A stretch of DNA of 7,773 nt from an uncultured Verrucomicrobiota bacterium (GTDB lineage: Bacteria; Verrucomicrobiota; Kiritimatiellia; RFP12; UBA1067). A model generated the notes under the pieces. It did not search any database. It saw only the letters and a program-made list of their open reading frames with translations, and was not told the origin of the DNA. Made by a program: the position numbers and the translations under genes. Location of the stretch: NCBI GenBank assembly GCA_945483525.1, contig CALYRV010000081.1, positions 1 to 7,773 of the forward strand, given 5' to 3'. Each line of letters opens with the position of its first letter. Positions within the stretch are counted from its first letter, which is position 1. Below are positions 44 through 7,773 of the stretch, piece after piece.

Positions 44-1465
44 TTACAAGTCACCAATCCGAATCCGCTTCCAACCGCCGAGGCGCCAACGGATGAAGGA
101 CCCGATCGAGATGATTACCACATAAAATACCATCGTAAGCCAGAGATCAACAATGTCACCGCCGAACCTTTTCACGACAAACACGAGCGGCATCCAGATG
201 ACGAACGATGAGATGAACATCCAGACGAAGACAAACCTCGTATCTCCTGCGCCCTTCAACGCGCCAGAAACGATCACATCGAGCGCATCAAATAAGAGCC
301 ATGCGGACATGATAGTCAGCAAACAGAACCCTAGCCCACAGAACGAAGACAGAGAAACGCCGTCCGGCACGAACAGCAAAAGTATTGGACGGCTGAACAC
401 CAACACACCGACACAGGCCGCGAACACGAAACCCAGTCCCAAGGTCATGGTCTTGTGAAAATCGGAGACCGCCGCCGCGATTTCACCCCGTCCGATCGCC
501 TGTCCCACCAGCGTCTGCGCCCCAATCCCGAATCCGATCATCGGCGCAAATATAAGATAGTTAATCGTAAAACACGCGTTCGAGACAGCGAACTCAAGAT
601 CGCCGAGGGTACCGGTGACGAAGACGAAAATCGTAAATGACAACATATTAAGCACTTCGTAACCACCGGCAGGAATACCGTAGCGGAGAATACGAAGAAT
701 CAGGCTGAAATCAAAGGTTGAGGTCGAGAGTTGGGCGATCGCTCTGCGTGAAGCCACAAACAGGATAACGAACTGGACGAACTGCGAAAATACAGTGGCA
801 TAAGCGGCGCCGGCGATGCCGAACGCCGGCAGATGAAGACTGAAAGTTGAACTGAAACAGGGAATGTCTAGATCCAAACCGAAAATCAGCAACGGATCAA
901 GCGCAATGTTAAGGAGGTTGCCGACAAGATTAACCCAGAAGACGATCCTCGTGCGCCCGTGTCCAGTAAAATACGAAATCGCAGCCATCTGCGCATAAAG
1001 AAAGACGCTTCCGAAAACAACTGCGTCAAAATATACGGACTCCTTAGCGACAATCGCAGGAGATGGTGCGGTCAGAGAGAAGATCCATCCACCAAGCGGA
1101 ACTAACGCGAACGAAAACAGTCCGGAACCGAGCGCGATTACAAGTCCCGCCCGATAGCTTTCGCCGCACTTTTCCTCATTGCCTGCGCCGAAATACTGCG
1201 ACACAAACACACCAGAATAGCCGACAACAGACTGGAAGAAGCCCATGAACACCCAGGCGAGAGTACAAGCCGGCAGCACCGCCTCAATCGACGAAAGAGA
1301 ATCCCGAGCAAGAAAAACACGGTCAACAAACTGCATGACAGCGTTATTGACCATGCCAAGCGCAAGCGGCCAAACCAACTTCAAGATTTCAAGATAACGT
1401 TTGATAATTTGTCGAAGTTGATGGTTGAAGTAGAAGAACAGAGTCGAGACTGAAGAATCAGACAA
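44..1465 (-). CDS. MATE-family multidrug/metabolite efflux transporter
   Basis: This is an inner-membrane antiporter of the MATE (NorM/DinF-like) family, which exports drugs or metabolites using a Na+ or H+ gradient. The 473 residues are the usual family length and show about 12 hydrophobic segments in two halves. The first segment starts near residue 29 (LKLVWPLALG) and runs into VDRVFLAR. The motif SQYFGAGNEEK near residues 89-99 and its second-half counterpart IGAQTLVGQAIGRGE are the repeated family signatures. The start used is TTG at 1465. It overlaps the preceding gene by 8 bases, has no clear Shine-Dalgarno sequence, and no ATG or GTG lies just upstream in frame. The first internal Met (residue 38) lies inside the first membrane segment and would remove its beginning, so the TTG or another nearby TTG is preferred. 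The overlap suggests translational coupling to the radical SAM fusion, so the substrate may be that enzyme's product. This is inference; MATE substrates cannot be read from sequence. Confidence 0.9.
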   Translation of the reverse strand: MSDSSVSTLFFYFNHQLRQIIKRYLEILKLVWPLALGMVNNAVMQFVDRVFLARDSLSSIEAVLPACTLAWVFMGFFQSVVGYSGVFVSQYFGAGNEEKCGESYRAGLVIALGSGLFSFALVPLGGWIFSLTAPSPAIVAKESVYFDAVVFGSVFLYAQMAAISYFTGHGRTRIVFWVNLVGNLLNIALDPLLIFGLDLDIPCFSSTFSLHLPAFGIAGAAYATVFSQFVQFVILFVASRRAIAQLSTSTFDFSLILRILRYGIPAGGYEVLNMLSFTIFVFVTGTLGDLEFAVSNACFTINYLIFAPMIGFGIGAQTLVGQAIGRGEIAAAVSDFHKTMTLGLGFVFAACVGVLVFSRPILLLFVPDGVSLSSFCGLGFCLLTIMSAWLLFDALDVIVSGALKGAGDTRFVFVWMFISSFVIWMPLVFVVKRFGGDIVDLWLTMVFYVVIISIGSFIRWRLGGWKRIRIGDL

Positions 1466-2933
1466 CTGGCAGTTTACGACCGGCTGCCGACTTGCCAGGA
1501 TAGAGATTGTAATTGGCCCTATATTTCGAGGGAGTGATATTTGTCATGTAAACGTTCGCGCCGTTCGTGAAACCCTTGTCACGACCTTCAGCATCAAGCA
1601 CTTCAAGCGCAGTCGCCGCGACAATATTGATCCCTGGCATCCGCCTTCTCGTCTCGCGAATCATCCACAGCGCCGTTTCCAACCGCGACACCTCGCTCCA
1701 CACTCCCGCCTCCACACTGCCCAACGGCGTATCCGCCGAAGGAACATACGGACCCATCCCGACCATATCCAAGCGCTCTTCGACAAACCAGTCAAGATCA
1801 CGCTCAAGATCCTCCTTAGTCTGTCCTGGAAGTCCGATCATCACACCGGAGCCCGTCACATACCCCAAACGCTTCAACGTGCGGATGCATTCAAGTCGCC
1901 GGGTGAACGAATGATCCGCCGGATGAAGACGCGCGTAAAGTTCAGGGTTGGAAGTCTCGATCCGTAGAAGATAACGAAGCACGCGATCTCCCGCGGCGGA
2001 CTTCCACCTGCGATAAACCTCCTCGGTCTGCTCGCCGAGACTCAGCGTCACCTCGAGCGTTGGCGGAAGCTTGCGAAGCACGCGCTCATAAAAAACCGTG
2101 TTCGACTCGCTCTCCACCTCACCCGCTTGAAGTGCAATCGCGGGAAATCCGAGTCGCACTGCTTCTGCAGAACACTCTAACACCTCTGCTTCCGTCATAT
2201 GGTATCGCGGCAGTTTCACCGCATCATGTCGGATACCGCAGTACAGACAGTTTTTTTTGCAGATGTTACTGACCTCAATGAGTCCGCGCGGCAATTTCAC
2301 CGCGCAGCGCTGAATCCCCTTCACCGCCGACGAAATCAACTCCGGGACCTTAGACGGAAGATCATGATTCTGCCCCTCAACCCAAGTCAACGACGCCTGC
2401 GGAAATATCCGGTTAAGATAATTAGCGTTATGAGGGCGAACAATCCCGTCCTTAATGGACTGAAAAATCGCCACAGGAAATCGTGTCTTACCAGCAATCG
2501 ACTCAAGCCCAGAACGAAGATCCGTAGTCTCGAGAAAGTCAAGACCGGCATCAAGATTCCGCTCGGCGAAAATCGGCGACGAATCATACGGATTCATCAT
2601 CTGCGTCCCAAGCTTCAGCGCATGCCTTCTCCGGAGCGACATCCCTATCCACCCCTCAGACTTCAACTCCATCATGCGCGGAGTAGCGGAAATGAGAACC
2701 GCTCCGCGGATCTTCTCTGGAAAATCAAGAATCGCCTGCTGTACGATAGACGCGCCCATCGAGAATCCAACCAGGACCACCGCATCCGCCTCAGAAACCG
2801 CCTTAAGCGACGCTCCCGAAAGATGATCAAGATATGAAAATATCCGATCATAATGAAAATCGCACCGATTCCAGCTTTCCGTAGTCGCGGCCCAGCCGTT
2901 AAACACAAATGTACAAACTTTCTCCATTATCAT
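1458..2933 (-). CDS. Fusion: BioG/BioH-like alpha/beta hydrolase plus HydE-like radical SAM domain
   Basis: Two enzyme domains share one 491-residue chain. Residues 1-205 are an alpha/beta hydrolase: FNGW near the N-terminus, nucleophile elbow GFSMG with Ser58, probable acid Asp162 (KDGIV) and His190 (NHD). The segment GLDFLETTDLR (130-140) recalls E. coli BioH (GLEILKTVDLR), while the short N-terminal half recalls BioG; both free pimeloyl-ACP in biotin synthesis. Residues 211-480 match HydE, the [FeFe]-hydrogenase maturase: C225-x3-C229-x2-C232 for the 4Fe-4S/SAM cluster, then LSLGE, RYLLRIETSNPEL, MIGLPGQT, GPYVPSADTPL and a C-terminal YPGK. HydE's N-terminal helices are replaced by the hydrolase. 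The chain stops 11 residues after YPGK, without HydE's C-terminal cysteines. BioB's auxiliary-cluster ligands are also missing. The start overlaps the peptidase stop (ATGA) without a Shine-Dalgarno sequence, implying coupling; an ATG two codons later is an alternative. No HydF or HydG gene is nearby. Fold assignments are firm; the reaction is unknown. Confidence 0.88.
   Translation of the reverse strand: MIMEKVCTFVFNGWAATTESWNRCDFHYDRIFSYLDHLSGASLKAVSEADAVVLVGFSMGASIVQQAILDFPEKIRGAVLISATPRMMELKSEGWIGMSLRRRHALKLGTQMMNPYDSSPIFAERNLDAGLDFLETTDLRSGLESIAGKTRFPVAIFQSIKDGIVRPHNANYLNRIFPQASLTWVEGQNHDLPSKVPELISSAVKGIQRCAVKLPRGLIEVSNICKKNCLYCGIRHDAVKLPRYHMTEAEVLECSAEAVRLGFPAIALQAGEVESESNTVFYERVLRKLPPTLEVTLSLGEQTEEVYRRWKSAAGDRVLRYLLRIETSNPELYARLHPADHSFTRRLECIRTLKRLGYVTGSGVMIGLPGQTKEDLERDLDWFVEERLDMVGMGPYVPSADTPLGSVEAGVWSEVSRLETALWMIRETRRRMPGINIVAATALEVLDAEGRDKGFTNGANVYMTNITPSKYRANYNLYPGKSAAGRKLPVV
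2250..2258 (-). other. A8 homopolymer inside the radical SAM cysteine motif, possible slippage site
   Basis: On the coding (minus) strand, the codons for C225-K-K-N-C229 read TGC AAA AAA AAC TGT. They contain eight consecutive A residues and, in the zero frame, the heptamer A AAA AAC. After a -1 shift the frame ends at TGA 2226-2224 after 8 codons. After loss of one A the other frame ends after 11 codons. Either event would give a protein with the whole hydrolase domain but no radical SAM cluster. The run may simply be the codon choice for Lys-Lys-Asn. No stimulatory stem or upstream Shine-Dalgarno sequence was established. Confidence 0.3.
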
Positions 2934-4204
2934 AACGGACGCAGAAAAAAGGCGTCATGAGTAATTGCGAAAGCCCAGTCTTCTGGAATGCGCTTGAGCT
3001 CGTGTCCAGCGCCCCAAGTATCGGTATAGAGCACCTCGCCGGTCTTGGCGTTATAGCCGATGATCAGCCGCATATGTCCGCCACGGCCCTGAATGTTCAA
3101 TCCCGGTTCAGGAAAGATCCCAAGCGTAACACCCCAACAAATCGGGATCCCCTTGTCGACCTGGGTTTTGACCCCAGAAAGGAACTTCTTATATCGAGAA
3201 TCCTTCGTGCGCATCTTCTTCAGCACCTTCGGCTTCATTTCGTCATAAAGCTCATTCACGGACACCATATTACCATGCATGTGCGACGCGAGGGAGATTT
3301 CGTCCTCCTTCATCGACTTGGCAGTCTTGTTATACGATTCGATCTCCTTTTCAATCTCACCGAACGATCCCGCCATCGAAACGATCTGATTGAAGCCAAG
3401 CCGCTTCTTAACTCCAATCGCCCTAATGGTCTCAATCATATCGCTCACCCTCGTTCCGCCCCGAGCTTGGCTACCAGCCTGCTGGGCAATCTCGTGCTCG
3501 TCGATGTCATGCCCGTAATACCTAAGCAACCGCTCGGAAACCGCGGCGGCACAATAGCCCTTCTGTCCCTGATCCACCATCGGAACCCCGTCAATCCACA
3601 CGTCGCCTTCGCCGTTCTTCTTAACGTTTGCCTTGACCTTCGCGGCTGCGTTCTGTCCCGAGATAGCTTTGGTCGCACCTTTTGGACGCATCTTCTGCTT
3701 CGGCGTCAGCGTCACCTTGACAAACTGTATCGAACCGTCGGAACCGACTCCCCAACTCAACTCCACCGCCGGATCCGCAGTAGGCCAACATCGCTCGTAC
3801 CGTAAACCCCGGGACTTCAACTTCGTCTTGACATCCTTCGGTTCCTTCTCGTCCTTGGCAAAGGACTTCTGAATCGCCCTCTTGAGGATCTCGAGATCGC
3901 CGGACAGAAAGTGATCGCCGGGGCCAGCGTCGCCGCGGTTATAAAGCGACATCTCGATGCGCTTCGCACCCGCACCGTTATTGTAGTAAATCCGCGTCTC
4001 CCAAACGTCGCAACCGAGCCACGAGACCTTACCCCGCTTCATGCAATTGACGACATCGCGCTTCTGACTGACGAAGTTGAAGCCGTCACCGATATGCTCA
4101 ACCGCGAAATCCGTCGCCGTCTCATCCCACGACTCCTTTTCGGCGAAATGTTCGCCGATATCGAAAACCGCGAGCATCAGTCCGGTAGCCAGTATCGAGA
4201 CCAT
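2930..4204 (-). CDS. Papain/C39-like cysteine peptidase with N-terminal domain of unknown function
   Basis: The C-terminal half (about residues 200-424) carries a papain-superfamily active site resembling Peptidase_C39-like proteins. VPMVDQGQKGYCAAA gives Gln212 (oxyanion hole) and Cys218 with papain spacing (Q-x5-C). GGHMRLIIGYN gives His377, and YTDTWG gives Asp395 in the place of the usual Asn/Asp. Residues 25-170 are a separate domain I do not recognise. Residues 1-14 are hydrophobic but lack a basic n-region or an obvious cleavage site, so export is possible but not shown. The start is supported by the Shine-Dalgarno sequence AAGGAAG at 4217-4211, six bases before the ATG, inside the end of proA. 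The stop overlaps the next start (ATGA). The true substrate is unknown. It could be a housekeeping or cell-envelope peptidase, or could process a peptide linked to the radical SAM and MATE genes downstream. Confidence 0.75.
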   Translation of the reverse strand: MVSILATGLMLAVFDIGEHFAEKESWDETATDFAVEHIGDGFNFVSQKRDVVNCMKRGKVSWLGCDVWETRIYYNNGAGAKRIEMSLYNRGDAGPGDHFLSGDLEILKRAIQKSFAKDEKEPKDVKTKLKSRGLRYERCWPTADPAVELSWGVGSDGSIQFVKVTLTPKQKMRPKGATKAISGQNAAAKVKANVKKNGEGDVWIDGVPMVDQGQKGYCAAAVSERLLRYYGHDIDEHEIAQQAGSQARGGTRVSDMIETIRAIGVKKRLGFNQIVSMAGSFGEIEKEIESYNKTAKSMKEDEISLASHMHGNMVSVNELYDEMKPKVLKKMRTKDSRYKKFLSGVKTQVDKGIPICWGVTLGIFPEPGLNIQGRGGHMRLIIGYNAKTGEVLYTDTWGAGHELKRIPEDWAFAITHDAFFLRPL

Positions 4205-4207
4205 CTG

Positions 4208-5503
4208 TTACTTCCTTATTACTCCGTCTCCGGTAATAGTGTACTTGTAGGTGGTCAGCTCTTCAAGCCCCATCGGTCCGCGCGCATGGAGTTTATCAGT
4301 CGAGATGCCGATCTCGGCCCCCATGCCGAATTCCGCGCCGTCCGTAAACCGCGTGGATACGTTATGATACACGCACGCCGAATCAACGTCGCGCAAAAAC
4401 TCCTTCGCCCGAGCTTCATCCGCAGTGACGATACAGTCGGAATGATGCGATCCGTACCGGTTGATATGCGCAATCGCCTCACGATAATCCTTCACGATCC
4501 CGACGTTCATCTCCAGCGCTAGAAATTCTCTACCCCACAACTGCTCACCGCGCTCAGCTTCCAGTTCATTCTCGGGCATATGCAATACGACCGACTCCCC
4601 CTTAGCCCACGCCTCAATCATCGGCATGAACATCGGCGCGAGCCTTTCATGGACGAGCAGACACTCCACAGCGTTGCACGCGCTGGGACGCTGACGCTTG
4701 GCGTTGTCGAGGATCGCAAGCGCCATCGACATATCCGCCTTATCATCCACGTAGACATGGCAAACGCCCTTGTAGTGCTTCAGCACCGGAACAAGCGACG
4801 CCTCACACATCGCCCGGATCAAACGTTCACCGCCGCGCGGAATCGCGACGTCGATGAGCCCGACGGCCCGCACCATCTCACTCACCGCCTCATGGTCGAG
4901 AATGTCGACAAACTGAACGGCGCAACGAAGAGAATGAGGATCTACGAACGAGGAATGAGGAATGGCGGAATTTTCCTTCATCTCTAATTCATAATTCTTA
5001 ATTCCTAATTCCACCGTCTTCGCCAACGCCGAGTTCGACTTGATCGCCTCCTTGCCGCCACGCAGGATGATCGCGTTGCCGGTCTTGAGACAGAGCGCGA
5101 CTGTATCAACGAAGACGTTGGGACGACTCTCAAAGACGACGGCAACCACGCCGAAAGGTTCACGAACTTTGCGAATGGTGATGCCACTGGGACGCTCACG
5201 AGTCCAGATCGTCTCGCCAACTGGATCAGGAAGCGTGGCAACGCAACGGACCCCGTCAACCATTGATTTGAAGCGCGCATCATTCAACGTAAGACGATCG
5301 ACCATCGCGGCACTGACTCCGCGCTCCTTCGCAGCCGCGACATCCTCAGCATTCGCCGAGAATATCTCCGCCTTCTTGGCCTCAAGCGTATCCGCAATCT
5401 TAATCAGAATTGCATTCTTCTCCTCGGCAGTGAGTTTCCTCAGCTCCGCTGCGGCGGCCCTCGCCTTTAGGGCCATGTCGTGAATGTATTCTTTAACTTT
5501 CAT
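4208..5503 (-). CDS. proA: Glutamate-5-semialdehyde dehydrogenase (gamma-glutamyl phosphate reductase)
   Basis: ProA catalyses NADPH-dependent reduction of gamma-glutamyl phosphate to glutamate-5-semialdehyde, the second step of proline synthesis in the cytoplasm. Family landmarks run through the 431 residues: ESRPNV (125-130), CLKTGNAIILRGGKE (138-152), IPRGG (221-225), catalytic Cys276 in QRPSACNAVE, STRFTDGAEFGMGAEIGIST (383-402) and KLHARGPMGLEELTTYK near the end. E. coli ProA has 417 residues. The excess lies around residues 165-193, where the expected GLPxGAVQ region is replaced by a repeat-derived peptide (KNYELE...PHSS) before returning at AVQFVD. The catalytic residues are intact, so the enzyme may still work. 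The gene starts 15 bases after the codB stop. The weak Shine-Dalgarno sequence AAAGG at 5520-5516 lies 12 bases before the ATG. The partner ProB (glutamate 5-kinase) is not in the window. Confidence 0.96.
   Translation of the reverse strand: MKVKEYIHDMALKARAAAAELRKLTAEEKNAILIKIADTLEAKKAEIFSANAEDVAAAKERGVSAAMVDRLTLNDARFKSMVDGVRCVATLPDPVGETIWTRERPSGITIRKVREPFGVVAVVFESRPNVFVDTVALCLKTGNAIILRGGKEAIKSNSALAKTVELGIKNYELEMKENSAIPHSSFVDPHSLRCAVQFVDILDHEAVSEMVRAVGLIDVAIPRGGERLIRAMCEASLVPVLKHYKGVCHVYVDDKADMSMALAILDNAKRQRPSACNAVECLLVHERLAPMFMPMIEAWAKGESVVLHMPENELEAERGEQLWGREFLALEMNVGIVKDYREAIAHINRYGSHHSDCIVTADEARAKEFLRDVDSACVYHNVSTRFTDGAEFGMGAEIGISTDKLHARGPMGLEELTTYKYTITGDGVIRK
4211..4217 (-). promoter_or_regulatory. 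Ribosome binding site of the peptidase gene
   Basis: AAGGAAG on the minus strand lies six bases before the ATG at 4204 and just inside the 3' end of proA (stop TAA at 4210-4208). It is one of the two strong Shine-Dalgarno sequences in the window and fixes the start of the peptidase. Confidence 0.7.
4925..5012 (-). repeat. Heptamer-repeat, quasi-palindromic element inserted in frame in proA
   Basis: On the coding strand from 5012 to 4985 there are four tandem heptamers: GGAATTA, GGAATTA, AGAATTA, TGAATTA. After a 19-base spacer come C plus CATTCCT, CATTCCT and CGTTCGT (4965-4944), then CATTCTCTT near 4935-4927. The outer units form an imperfect inverted repeat: GGAATGAGGAATGG at 4952-4965 against TAATTCCTAATTCC at 4999-5012 on the + strand. 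The encoded peptide (KNYELE then IPHSSF and DPHSL) is of a kind I recall from dispersed bacterial repeats that translate as NYELRIKNYEL and PHSALPTPHS strings. Compared with E. coli ProA, this stretch is about 18 residues longer. The boundaries are approximate. Confidence 0.75.
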
Positions 5504-5518
5504 GGCGATTACTGGCCT

Positions 5519-6859
5519 TTATCGGCCAAGCTTGGAAAGTCCGACGTAGATAATGGTAGCTACCACCATGCCGTTGACTGCAGGAATGCCCCAGGTCGCC
5601 CAGGAGCCAAGCGGTAGATAACCGAAGCCGCCAAGCGCCAGCACCGAACCGAGCGCCCAGGCGACAACTGCGGGAAGCGAGACCGGCACCGCGGGACGCT
5701 CGCCCGTGCGCCGGAGCAGGAAGTAGTCGGCGATGACGATCGCTCCGCACGGAGGAATCACCGTATTGAGGATGTTGAGCCAGCCGCAGAAGTTGTCGTA
5801 GAGCCAGAGCGCGAGGACCGTGCCGAGGACGCCGTCGAAAAGCACGATCCAGCGCTTCGGCAATCGCGTGATGTTCGCAAGCCCGAGACCCGAGGTGTAG
5901 AGCGCGTTGTCGTTGGTCGTCCAAATGTTGAGTCCGAGCACGAAGATCGCCGGCAGCAGTAGCCCTTGGAGCGCCAGGACTTCGGAGATATCGTTCTTGC
6001 CGTAGACCATCGCCGCCGCCGCGCCGAAGAAGAACATGAGCGAATTGCCGATGAAGAACGCGAGCGAGGTCGTCAGCACCGCGTGCCTGCCGTTCTTCGC
6101 GAATCGCGCGAAGTCAGGAGTGCAGCTGCCGCCGGAGATGAACGAACCGATGGACATCGAGATTGCGGCCACCATGCCGATGGCGAGCGAGGTTCCGTCC
6201 TCGGCAGTTCCCGGGACATGCTGGAAGAGCCGCACATAGCCCTGTCCGTCACCATCGAAGAACATGGCGGCAATCGCGCTCCAGAGTCCGAGCACCGCGA
6301 TCGACGGTACCGCGACGAGCGAGATGATGTGCAGCGCGCGGATTCCAAAATAAGCACTCGAGGTCATCAGTAGGCCAGAGACACCAGTGAGCAAATAAAG
6401 GCAGTGCACTGGCAAATCCGCAGCTCCAAAGACCGAGACCAAAGGACCGGACATCAGCCAAGTGCCCTGGAGCGACGCGACCCCCTTCAGAAATACTGTA
6501 GTCGGAATCGAGAACATCGCCACGCCCACGCCAAACCAGCCGATCTGAGTAAAGGCGAGCACCGACGAGGGAATGTAGGAACCGTACGTGCCGAAGCTTC
6601 GGCGCGAGAGCAGATGGATTGAAAGCCCGGTCTTGGCCGCGGCGAACGCCAGCAACGAACAATAGACTGCAAGGATCAGATTACCTGCCATCATCCCGGA
6701 GACGAAACCGCCGAACGTCATACCAGAACCGATTTTCTGCCCTACCCACATCGAGGCAGAGAAGAACGTGAAACCCATCATGATCATGAACATTGACCAG
6801 AACCCGCAGCGTTCGCCAGAGCTTACAGAGGTCTGTTCAAAGTCGTTGTGATTAGCCAT
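5519..6859 (-). CDS. codB: Cytosine permease, NCS1 family
   Basis: CodB is an inner-membrane symporter that imports cytosine for pyrimidine salvage. Similarity to E. coli CodB is visible throughout: GFTFFSASMW (29-38), KTGLSIHLL (76-84), TQIGWFGVGVAMFSIP (104-119), GSFISGGSCTPDFARF (238-253), FFIGNSLMFFFGAAAA (268-283), and the near-identical QGLLLPAIFVLGLNIWTTND (298-317), then NALYTSGLGLANIT, followed by ALWLYDNFCGWL and IPPCGAIVIADY. The 446 residues make about 12 membrane segments; E. coli CodB has 419, and the extra residues lie mainly around 120-150. The ATG lies within the end of the upstream PRTase gene (8-base overlap), with a good Shine-Dalgarno sequence, AAGGAAA at 6872-6866. No cytosine deaminase (CodA) is seen here, though one could lie upstream of the window. 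Specificity for cytosine rather than another nucleobase is inferred from similarity. Confidence 0.93.
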   Translation of the reverse strand: MANHNDFEQTSVSSGERCGFWSMFMIMMGFTFFSASMWVGQKIGSGMTFGGFVSGMMAGNLILAVYCSLLAFAAAKTGLSIHLLSRRSFGTYGSYIPSSVLAFTQIGWFGVGVAMFSIPTTVFLKGVASLQGTWLMSGPLVSVFGAADLPVHCLYLLTGVSGLLMTSSAYFGIRALHIISLVAVPSIAVLGLWSAIAAMFFDGDGQGYVRLFQHVPGTAEDGTSLAIGMVAAISMSIGSFISGGSCTPDFARFAKNGRHAVLTTSLAFFIGNSLMFFFGAAAAMVYGKNDISEVLALQGLLLPAIFVLGLNIWTTNDNALYTSGLGLANITRLPKRWIVLFDGVLGTVLALWLYDNFCGWLNILNTVIPPCGAIVIADYFLLRRTGERPAVPVSLPAVVAWALGSVLALGGFGYLPLGSWATWGIPAVNGMVVATIIYVGLSKLGR

Positions 6860-7773
6860 TGATAATTTCCTTCATGCGGTTAATTTGACGGTTAGAAAGT
6901 TCTATCAGATCAACATTCCCGAAGCGCTTCGAATCCAGCTGCGGGAATCGTTCGGCAAGTAGCGCCTCGAAGGTCATCCCATTCTGGGCCAGAGCCCTGG
7001 TCTGCTGCCAGTACCCGAGCACGTCTTCGGCGTATTCGTCGGGGGCGAAAGCGCGGCTGCCGGCATCATAGATGATGCAGCGTTCGATCGGATAGGCTGG
7101 ATCCTCGTACTGCGACTCGACGAAGGCATCGGCCATAACCGCCCCGTAACGGAGCAAATCGGTGCCGGGCAGCTTGATCGAAAGCGGAGTGGACCGGTCT
7201 GGCACGGTGAACATACCCTCGAGGTAGATCAGTGTCGTCCCTTCATAAGAAGAGAAAAGTCGGCGACATCTCTCGTCAACCGCCTCCAGAATCTTCAACG
7301 CCTTCGGCCCGCCATACGTAAAGAAGACGACGCTACGGAGATTCACTCCCGTGGACCGTGCGTTATTAACGAGTTCGTCAAGGGCGTATACAAGCGAAGT
7401 CCCAGTGGCGACGACATCGCCGATGACAAGCGAGGCGTTCCGCGGGAAACGGAGCTTCCTGTAGGCGTTTTCGGTGATGTGCCAGTCATCACCTTCGCAA
7501 TCTTTGGCGCGTTGCGCGGAGAGGAAGCAGGTGGCGTGGACATTCCAGCCGTAGGCGGCGCCAAGCGCATCGCGAAGCCCGTAGTTGAGACCACCACGGA
7601 GAATATTCACCACCGCGGTCTCACGCTCCACCAGTTTTAACTCCGGCCCCAATTTACTGAGGATCTCCGCGCAAGATCTGGAAAGCGTCTTCGTGTAATC
7701 ACAGCCGAGACAACGCGGGTCGTTACAAATCCGACGAGTTCCTTCGGTCGATGCAATCAGCGCTAGGACCCGT
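6852..7773 (-). CDS. Phosphoribosyltransferase-family protein, 5' end outside the window
   Basis: Type I phosphoribosyltransferases join a nucleobase to PRPP. The PRPP loop is clear: SLVIGDVVATGTSL, encoded near 7433-7392. ILRGGLNYGL nearer the N-terminus matches the substrate-side loop common in this fold. A TTG at 7652 could serve as a start (266 residues), but its reading frame stays open through all 40 codons up to the window edge. Those codons translate sensibly (LALIASTEGTRRICNDP...), so the TTG is probably internal and the gene is partial. The upstream part contains a cysteine cluster, C-x4-C-x2-C-x9-C, that could bind a metal. The loop has Gly-Asp where most family members have two acidic residues. 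About 130 residues follow the core fold and are unassigned. The gene overlaps codB by 8 bases, so a salvage role with an imported base is likely. The base itself (uracil, orotate or purine) cannot be decided. Confidence 0.82.
   Translation of the reverse strand, partial: RVLALIASTEGTRRICNDPRCLGCDYTKTLSRSCAEILSKLGPELKLVERETAVVNILRGGLNYGLRDALGAAYGWNVHATCFLSAQRAKDCEGDDWHITENAYRKLRFPRNASLVIGDVVATGTSLVYALDELVNNARSTGVNLRSVVFFTYGGPKALKILEAVDERCRRLFSSYEGTTLIYLEGMFTVPDRSTPLSIKLPGTDLLRYGAVMADAFVESQYEDPAYPIERCIIYDAGSRAFAPDEYAEDVLGYWQQTRALAQNGMTFEALLAERFPQLDSKRFGNVDLIELSNRQINRMKEIING
6866..6872 (-). promoter_or_regulatory. Ribosome binding site of codB
   Basis: AAGGAAA on the minus strand lies six bases before the ATG at 6859 and inside the last codons of the phosphoribosyltransferase gene. 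It confirms the overlapping start of codB. Confidence 0.7.

Follow-up and report, generated by a model that had tools for sequence, protein, structure and literature searches.

The window analysed here is a whole stretch of 7,773 nt, positions 1–7,773 of contig CALYRV010000081.1 (assembly GCA_945483525.1), from an uncultured Verrucomicrobiota bacterium. It contains six genes, all on the minus strand (Table 1). One of these encodes a single protein in which an alpha/beta hydrolase is followed directly by HydE, a radical S-adenosylmethionine (SAM) enzyme. HydE belongs to a set of three enzymes dedicated to building the [FeFe]-hydrogenase centre. The reading frame of the fusion is unbroken over 491 amino acids (aa), and Pfam places Abhydrolase_1 at residues 50–88 (1.6e-8) and Radical_SAM at residues 219–382 (3.6e-20). 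Both domains had been assigned in a preliminary description made from the DNA letters alone, and the Pfam, NCBIfam and fold matches agree with it.

Table 1. Features of the window, with positions counted from its first nucleotide (ORF, open reading frame)
Feature	Position	Strand	Basis and remarks
Hydrolase-HydE fusion gene	1458..2933	minus	single ORF, ATG to stop, 491 aa + stop; family matches
Alpha/beta hydrolase domain, residues 1–209, BioH nearest	2307..2933	minus	family, profile and fold searches, and model
Ser58 codon, predicted catalytic nucleophile (GFSMG)	2760..2762	minus	invariant in 10/10 fusions and 18/18 hydrolases
Asp162 codon, predicted catalytic acid	2448..2450	minus	invariant in 10/10 fusions and 18/18 hydrolases
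His190 codon, predicted catalytic base	2364..2366	minus	invariant in 10/10 fusions and 18/18 hydrolases
Joint, residues 207–216	2286..2315	minus	last hydrolase helix continues into first HydE strand; alignment and model secondary structure
HydE domain, residues 211–491, first 48 positions of the family model absent	1461..2303	minus	family, fold and tree
CX3CX2C motif (Cys225, Cys229, Cys232), predicted SAM-binding [4Fe-4S] cluster	2238..2261	minus	alignment; 10/10 fusions
MATE-family transporter, downstream of the fusion	44..1465	minus	ORF list, Pfam; frame shares 8 bases with the fusion
C39-peptidase-like gene, upstream of the fusion	2930..4204	minus	ORF and Pfam; 4-base overlap with the fusion; context only
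proA	4208-5503	minus	window gene
Cytosine permease	5519-6859	minus	window gene
Phosphoribosyltransferase-like fragment	6852-7772	minus	306 aa, at the window edge

Among named families, BioH comes closest to the N-terminal half. The BioH family model TIGR01738 is matched by all 18 of the diverse hydrolases that were aligned (best 2.8e-19, NCBIfam), and BioH structures head both the PDB profile search and the fold search (template-modelling (TM) score ~0.68, 17% identity). With 38.7 bits, the window domain itself falls far below the cut-off of 207, and the full-length fusion has 34.9 bits. Alignment and predicted model place a Ser-Asp-His triad within an alpha/beta-hydrolase fold, as in BioH. 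The three residues are those named in the preliminary description, and Asn12-Gly13-Trp14 is also invariant in 18/18 of the aligned hydrolases. That description saw a resemblance to both BioG and BioH. The likeness to BioH stands; no BioG model occurs among the Pfam matches or the listed NCBIfam matches, which cover 25 of 33 families for the aligned hydrolases. Foldseek also returned plant karrikin and strigolactone receptors, an identity that was rejected as the fold alone is in common. The hydrolase had been thought complete, and an AlphaFold model of this domain alone is in keeping with that (predicted local distance difference test (pLDDT) 94.6, predicted TM score (pTM) 0.91).

The C-terminal half is, to judge from its sequence and predicted structure, a HydE-type radical SAM domain. 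It matches the HydE model TIGR03956 with 251.0 bits (NCBIfam), residues 215–486 corresponding to profile positions 49–313 of 340. The HydE of Thermotoga maritima is the top PDB match of the fusion by sequence (1e-63), and its structure 3cix is the top fold match of the predicted model (2.1e-26, 45% identity, root-mean-square deviation of 1.8 A over 271 columns). The window retains 68 of the 88 columns that are fixed, i.e., at least 95% conserved, among 18 HydEs linked to hydG and hydF. The mean share of these columns retained is 0.78 in the fusions, in short HydEs and in HydEs linked to bioB or mnmA, and 0.79 in hydF-linked Bacteroidales HydEs.

The fusion is recurrent. A search of a database of 5.8 billion proteins finds ten fusion clusters at 66–99% identity from several sources, one of which (P0001, 99%) is practically the window's own protein. 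An alignment of ten fusions (the window and P0002–P0010) shows that Ser58, Asp162, His190 and Cys225/229/232 are invariant and that the joint is of identical length throughout, with no flexible linker. The mean pairwise identity over 45 pairs is 0.72 in the hydrolase and 0.79 in HydE; the two halves have diverged together. An AlphaFold model of the whole fusion has a pLDDT of 90.4 and a pTM of 0.89; it is compact, and the joint is predicted to be rigid at residues 197–220. Candidate starts for a separate HydE are present in frame (TTG at residues 199 and 214, GTG at 204 and 212), and inspection by eye shows no well-placed ribosome site for an internal HydE start. An assembly artefact or misread frame might be suspected, given that high-G+C contigs carry long spurious frames and that the listed fusion clusters are without names. 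This explanation is barely credible, because there are ten clusters at these identities, from several sources, with both halves homologous throughout and the joint constant. A search for this architecture had been proposed in the preliminary description, and the clusters show that it recurs.

A quick, midpoint-rooted tree of HydE sequences has 137 rows; four of 141 were dropped (G152 and G156, two frames from each, with no more than 200 residues aligned), and 34 of the 120 proteins listed by a database search were taken. The fusions, 11 rows in all, group together with a Shimodaira-Hasegawa-like approximate likelihood ratio (SH-aLRT) support of 90, and on this grouping the fusion probably arose once. 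The neighbours of the group are short stand-alone HydEs of 275–315 aa and one HydE fused to an ABC ATPase. The short HydEs that were inspected by sequence lack the same N-terminal segment as the fusion, and thus the shortening of HydE probably preceded the fusion. The fusion side of the tree includes Bacteroidales HydEs linked to hydF or hydG, and L185, a HydE from a hydE-hydG-hydF-hydrogenase cluster. By the HydE half, the nearest genome records are two metagenome-assembled genomes (MAGs), one of Verrucomicrobia (L001, 59%) and one of Kiritimatiellae (L002, 54%), and neither has the fusion. Of the matches listed for 345 genomes of the class (threshold 1e-90), none is of fusion length, and those listed for the nearest order (161 genomes) likewise include no fusion. 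In viral contigs, 16 stretches fit the search pattern, none of them a relative.

The 161 genomes of this nearest searchable order were used for a survey of HydE and its partners. They are drafts related by descent, and the p-values given below are descriptive only. A HydE match is present in 143 genomes, and exactly one in 136. Exactly one HydE together with HydG, HydF and a PF02906 hydrogenase match is found in 82/161 genomes. This is a count over cut-offs, made because the HydG search at 1e-30 also catches ThiH-like proteins (the E. coli control was positive); looser thresholds give 98. The figure of 82 is a low count, genes being fragmented in drafts; 127 of 128 HydG genomes entered it, and the hydrogenase criterion is any PF02906 match (138/161), which may include non-catalytic relatives. 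The single HydE of the 82 genomes presumably serves hydrogenase. The preliminary description held that its idea would fail if hydrogenase, HydF and HydG accompanied a sole HydE and the hydrolase part were missing from all homologues. The first is often the case in these relatives, but the hydrolase is present in all ten fusion clusters.

Some HydE relatives have other neighbours, and these bear on the possibility that the HydE half has been repurposed for a sulfur-containing cofactor, such as biotin or the thiamine thiazole, with the hydrolase trimming the substrate. In 9/94 genomes having both genes, bioB directly adjoins hydE (gap of 27–391 bases), and mnmA is within 1.6 kb of hydE in 7/79 genome loci. 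These frequencies are from genome-wide counts, since the first nine hydE loci examined had been chosen for an adjacent bioB. In L144 (6576-12279), a single locus holds cysK, hydE, bioB, mnmA, a ThiS-like gene (identified by eye), thiF and a partial thiH. No paper was found in the open-licence literature on the co-occurrence of at least four of HydE, MnmA, BioB, ThiF and CysK. The branch of the fusion lies just below the HydE cut-off, which would also suit a changed function. However, the nine genomes with adjacent hydE and bioB mostly have HydG (8) and HydF (7) over the cut-off and a hydrogenase match (7), and six have one HydE only, so the bioB-adjacent HydE is probably needed for hydrogenase. 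In addition, HydE-fixed residues are retained equally in all groups, and the nearest readable non-fused HydEs (L001 and L002) show no such neighbours in the seed search. Repurposing of the fused HydE is thus quite unlikely, although, given the sulfur-cofactor loci, there is a slight possibility that HydEs of this branch have an additional role with another sulfur cofactor.

Several side observations concern hydE in other genomes. In L147, L150, L151, L158, L160 and L161, from Kiritimatiellae-type genomes, hydE is near parts of the sulfur-cofactor gene set of L144. The mnmA gene adjoins hydE or is within 1.6 kb of it in L003, L004, L012, L013 and L016, and on the opposite strand in L008 and L010; these are mostly Lentisphaeria-type or rumen genomes. 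Three Pelobacter genomes (L035/L059, L039/L055 and L041/L051) have two hydE genes each, one in a hydE-hydG-hydF cluster and the second apart from it with cysK ~2-3 kb away. A 548 aa relative of HydE (P0111) contains a long repeat within its sequence, which may reflect a duplication or a faulty assembly.

The hydrolase is widespread as a separate protein. At 1e-10 the database has 469 proteins with it (from 716 candidates), with an identity of 59% for the nearest that stands alone, and it is a stand-alone gene in 77/161 genomes of the order. Its presence is not associated with HydE (71/77 vs 72/84 genomes, p 0.22), and hydE was not found near it in the 22 loci compared from these 77 genomes. 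Gene calls in the relatives' loci are based on codon usage and some starts are wrong, and the coaB-like, deaminase and nucleosidase-like proteins fall below curated cut-offs. With these limits, a coaB-like gene is within 2.7 kb of the hydrolase in 9/22 loci, an MtaD-like deaminase adjoins it in 5/22 and a nucleosidase-like gene is within 3.5 kb in 3/22. A MATE gene, ~55% identical in product to that of the window, is 1.9–2.3 kb upstream on the same strand in 5/22 loci. As a side observation, the hydrolase gene of L167–L170 and L172 overlaps the coaB-like gene and is downstream of the MATE gene and of an HD-domain-like gene, the latter assigned by eye and without an NCBIfam match.

These counts are also relevant to a biotin or acyl-cofactor pathway, one of the options first put forward, in which a BioH-like hydrolase of pimeloyl esters would work with an unrecognised radical SAM partner. 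The likeness to BioH described above speaks for it, as does the presence of a stand-alone hydrolase in 48 of the 79 genomes with BioB and BioD, 47 of the 48 being without recognisable BioC. BioB and BioD are slightly enriched in hydrolase genomes (p 0.022 and 0.007, confounded by common descent). The BioB total is 102 of 105 genomes, as G038, G048 and G054 (108–112 bits) look like HydE cross-matches and were excluded. But BioC is present in only 1/77 hydrolase genomes compared with 17/84 others (odds ratio 0.05, p 8e-5, confounded by descent; 18 genomes counted at >130 bits, of which 11 exceed the cut-off), and neither BioB nor BioD is found in 16/77. A role of the hydrolase as the BioH of the known BioC-dependent route is therefore unlikely. 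With the low BioH score of the window domain, and a radical SAM half that is of HydE type and not BioB (39.1 bits vs a cut-off of 225), the biotin explanation of the fusion as a whole is very unlikely.

The reasoning that a fusion indicates one shared pathway, which underlay the preliminary description, is weakened by other fusions. A search with the hydrolase half among proteins of 270–859 aa gives 21 matches at 1e-5. Ten are HydE fusions, P0121 is fused to HPPK, P0123 to a group-1 glycosyltransferase, P0122 has an unassigned tail, and the remaining eight are 282–315 aa in length with no second domain listed. On the other side, P0031 is a short HydE fused to an oligopeptide-type ABC-transporter ATPase. 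As each half has been fused to unrelated partners, the inference from fusion to shared pathway is weak, and a new metabolite pathway with export by the MATE transporter finds no support either.

The fusions of the hydrolase to unrelated partners also count against a functional coupling, in which the hydrolase would contribute to the assembly of the H-cluster or to its protection, e.g., by cleavage of a thioester or ester by-product, or by action on the aminomethyl-lipoyl H-protein, which supplies the bridging ligand. The retention of all catalytic residues in a fusion of probably single origin and the compact two-domain model are in favour of coupling. HydE tolerates functional fusions, since HydE-HydF fusions exist in green algae (PMC3897525, in the part available), and the H-protein is an established partner in maturation (PMC11736057). 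The available part of that account describes maturation with HydE, HydF, HydG and H-protein and mentions no such hydrolase, and 40 of the 84 hydrolase-free genomes nevertheless have exactly one HydE with HydG, HydF and hydrogenase. We regard coupling as rather unlikely. A more specific proposal is that Ser58 would cleave an acyl, thioester or carrier-bound species for HydE and that the linker-free fusion would channel it between the active sites, in H-cluster or HydE-linked sulfur-cofactor chemistry; this too we hold to be unlikely.

The reading favoured here, and somewhat the more probable, is that two ordinary enzymes, a HydE maturase and a BioH-like hydrolase, have become tethered in one bifunctional protein that is specific to a lineage. 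A single event in an uncultured relative of the Kiritimatiellae or Verrucomicrobiota probably removed the stop codon between a gene for a BioH-like hydrolase and a short hydE gene. From the chemistry of the HydE family, Cys225/229/232 would hold the [4Fe-4S] cluster that cleaves SAM, HydG would supply the cysteine-bound Fe(CO)2(CN) complex as the target of the radical, and the product would be a diiron precursor handed to HydF. In the published scheme the HydG product is adenosylated by HydE and the diiron complex is then passed to HydF (PMC11736057, in the part available). The Ser58-His190-Asp162 hydrolase would have a housekeeping reaction of its own, the cleavage of a small ester or thioester. 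The halves would be held rigidly side by side, and a shared pathway would not be required.

Several points weigh against this reading. The HydE score is 3.6 bits short of the curated cut-off of 254.6. G001 and G002, the nearest readable relatives, are also below it (253.6 and 248.6), and their matches start at profile position 5, so that the N-terminal part is present. The missing N-terminus is thus not the sole cause of the low score and the branch is somewhat divergent; for this reason the C-terminal half is best filed as a HydE variant and not as a standard HydE. The draft genome G002 has no hydrogenase match, some HydE relatives lie in a biotin/thiamine/cysteine locus, and the presence of HydF, HydG and hydrogenase in the fusion-bearing genomes is assumed from relatives. 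Both active sites are intact in fusions down to 66% identity and the two-domain model is compact. The persistence of the fusion to this identity with a whole triad suggests that it is useful.

The remaining genes of the window give context. The MATE gene next to the fusion is genuine according to Pfam. Its true start codon is uncertain, and the overlap given for it is one of reading frames. The fragment at the window edge is without a Pfam match, and its match to uracil phosphoribosyltransferase is weak (0.0044). Scans of the window with Rfam and for tRNAs gave no match.

A joining of this hydrolase to HydE with the triad intact is, as far as the literature search reached, a new architecture; no paper on it was found among the open-licence literature, and it is apparently undescribed, as had been surmised. 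The fusion may expose a missing step in H-cluster assembly. Otherwise it would show that HydE can accommodate a large partner at its N-terminus and is able to work without its own N-terminal segment. Caution is needed, as this hydrolase has several unrelated fusion partners and one fusion is no proof of a shared pathway.

A comparison with known systems shows partial similarities to four. The C-terminal half shares with HydE (TIGR03956; T. maritima, PDB 3cix/3ciw) the fold, the CX3CX2C motif, the family-fixed residues and a position in the tree, but the N-terminal 48 positions of the model are replaced by the hydrolase, and the score is below the cut-off. BioH (TIGR01738; PDB 4nmw, 4etw, 1m33) is the best named family and the best fold match of the N-terminal half, with the same fold and triad. 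The fusion hydrolase is unlike it in the low score and identity given above, in being ~45 residues shorter, and in that BioC is absent from 76/77 of the relatives' genomes carrying the hydrolase. The HydEF of green algae also has HydE inside a fusion protein; as described in the available part of the source, the algal HydE comes first, ahead of the maturase HydF, whereas here HydE is C-terminal and follows a hydrolase (PMC3897525). The BioG-BioC fusion of Bacteroides fragilis, again from a source available in part, joins a biotin-type esterase to a SAM-using enzyme and is likewise sporadic within its group; in contrast, BioG belongs to another hydrolase family, BioC is a methyltransferase and not a radical SAM enzyme, and a linker of ten residues connects the two, where the hydrolase-HydE joint has none (PMC3494674).

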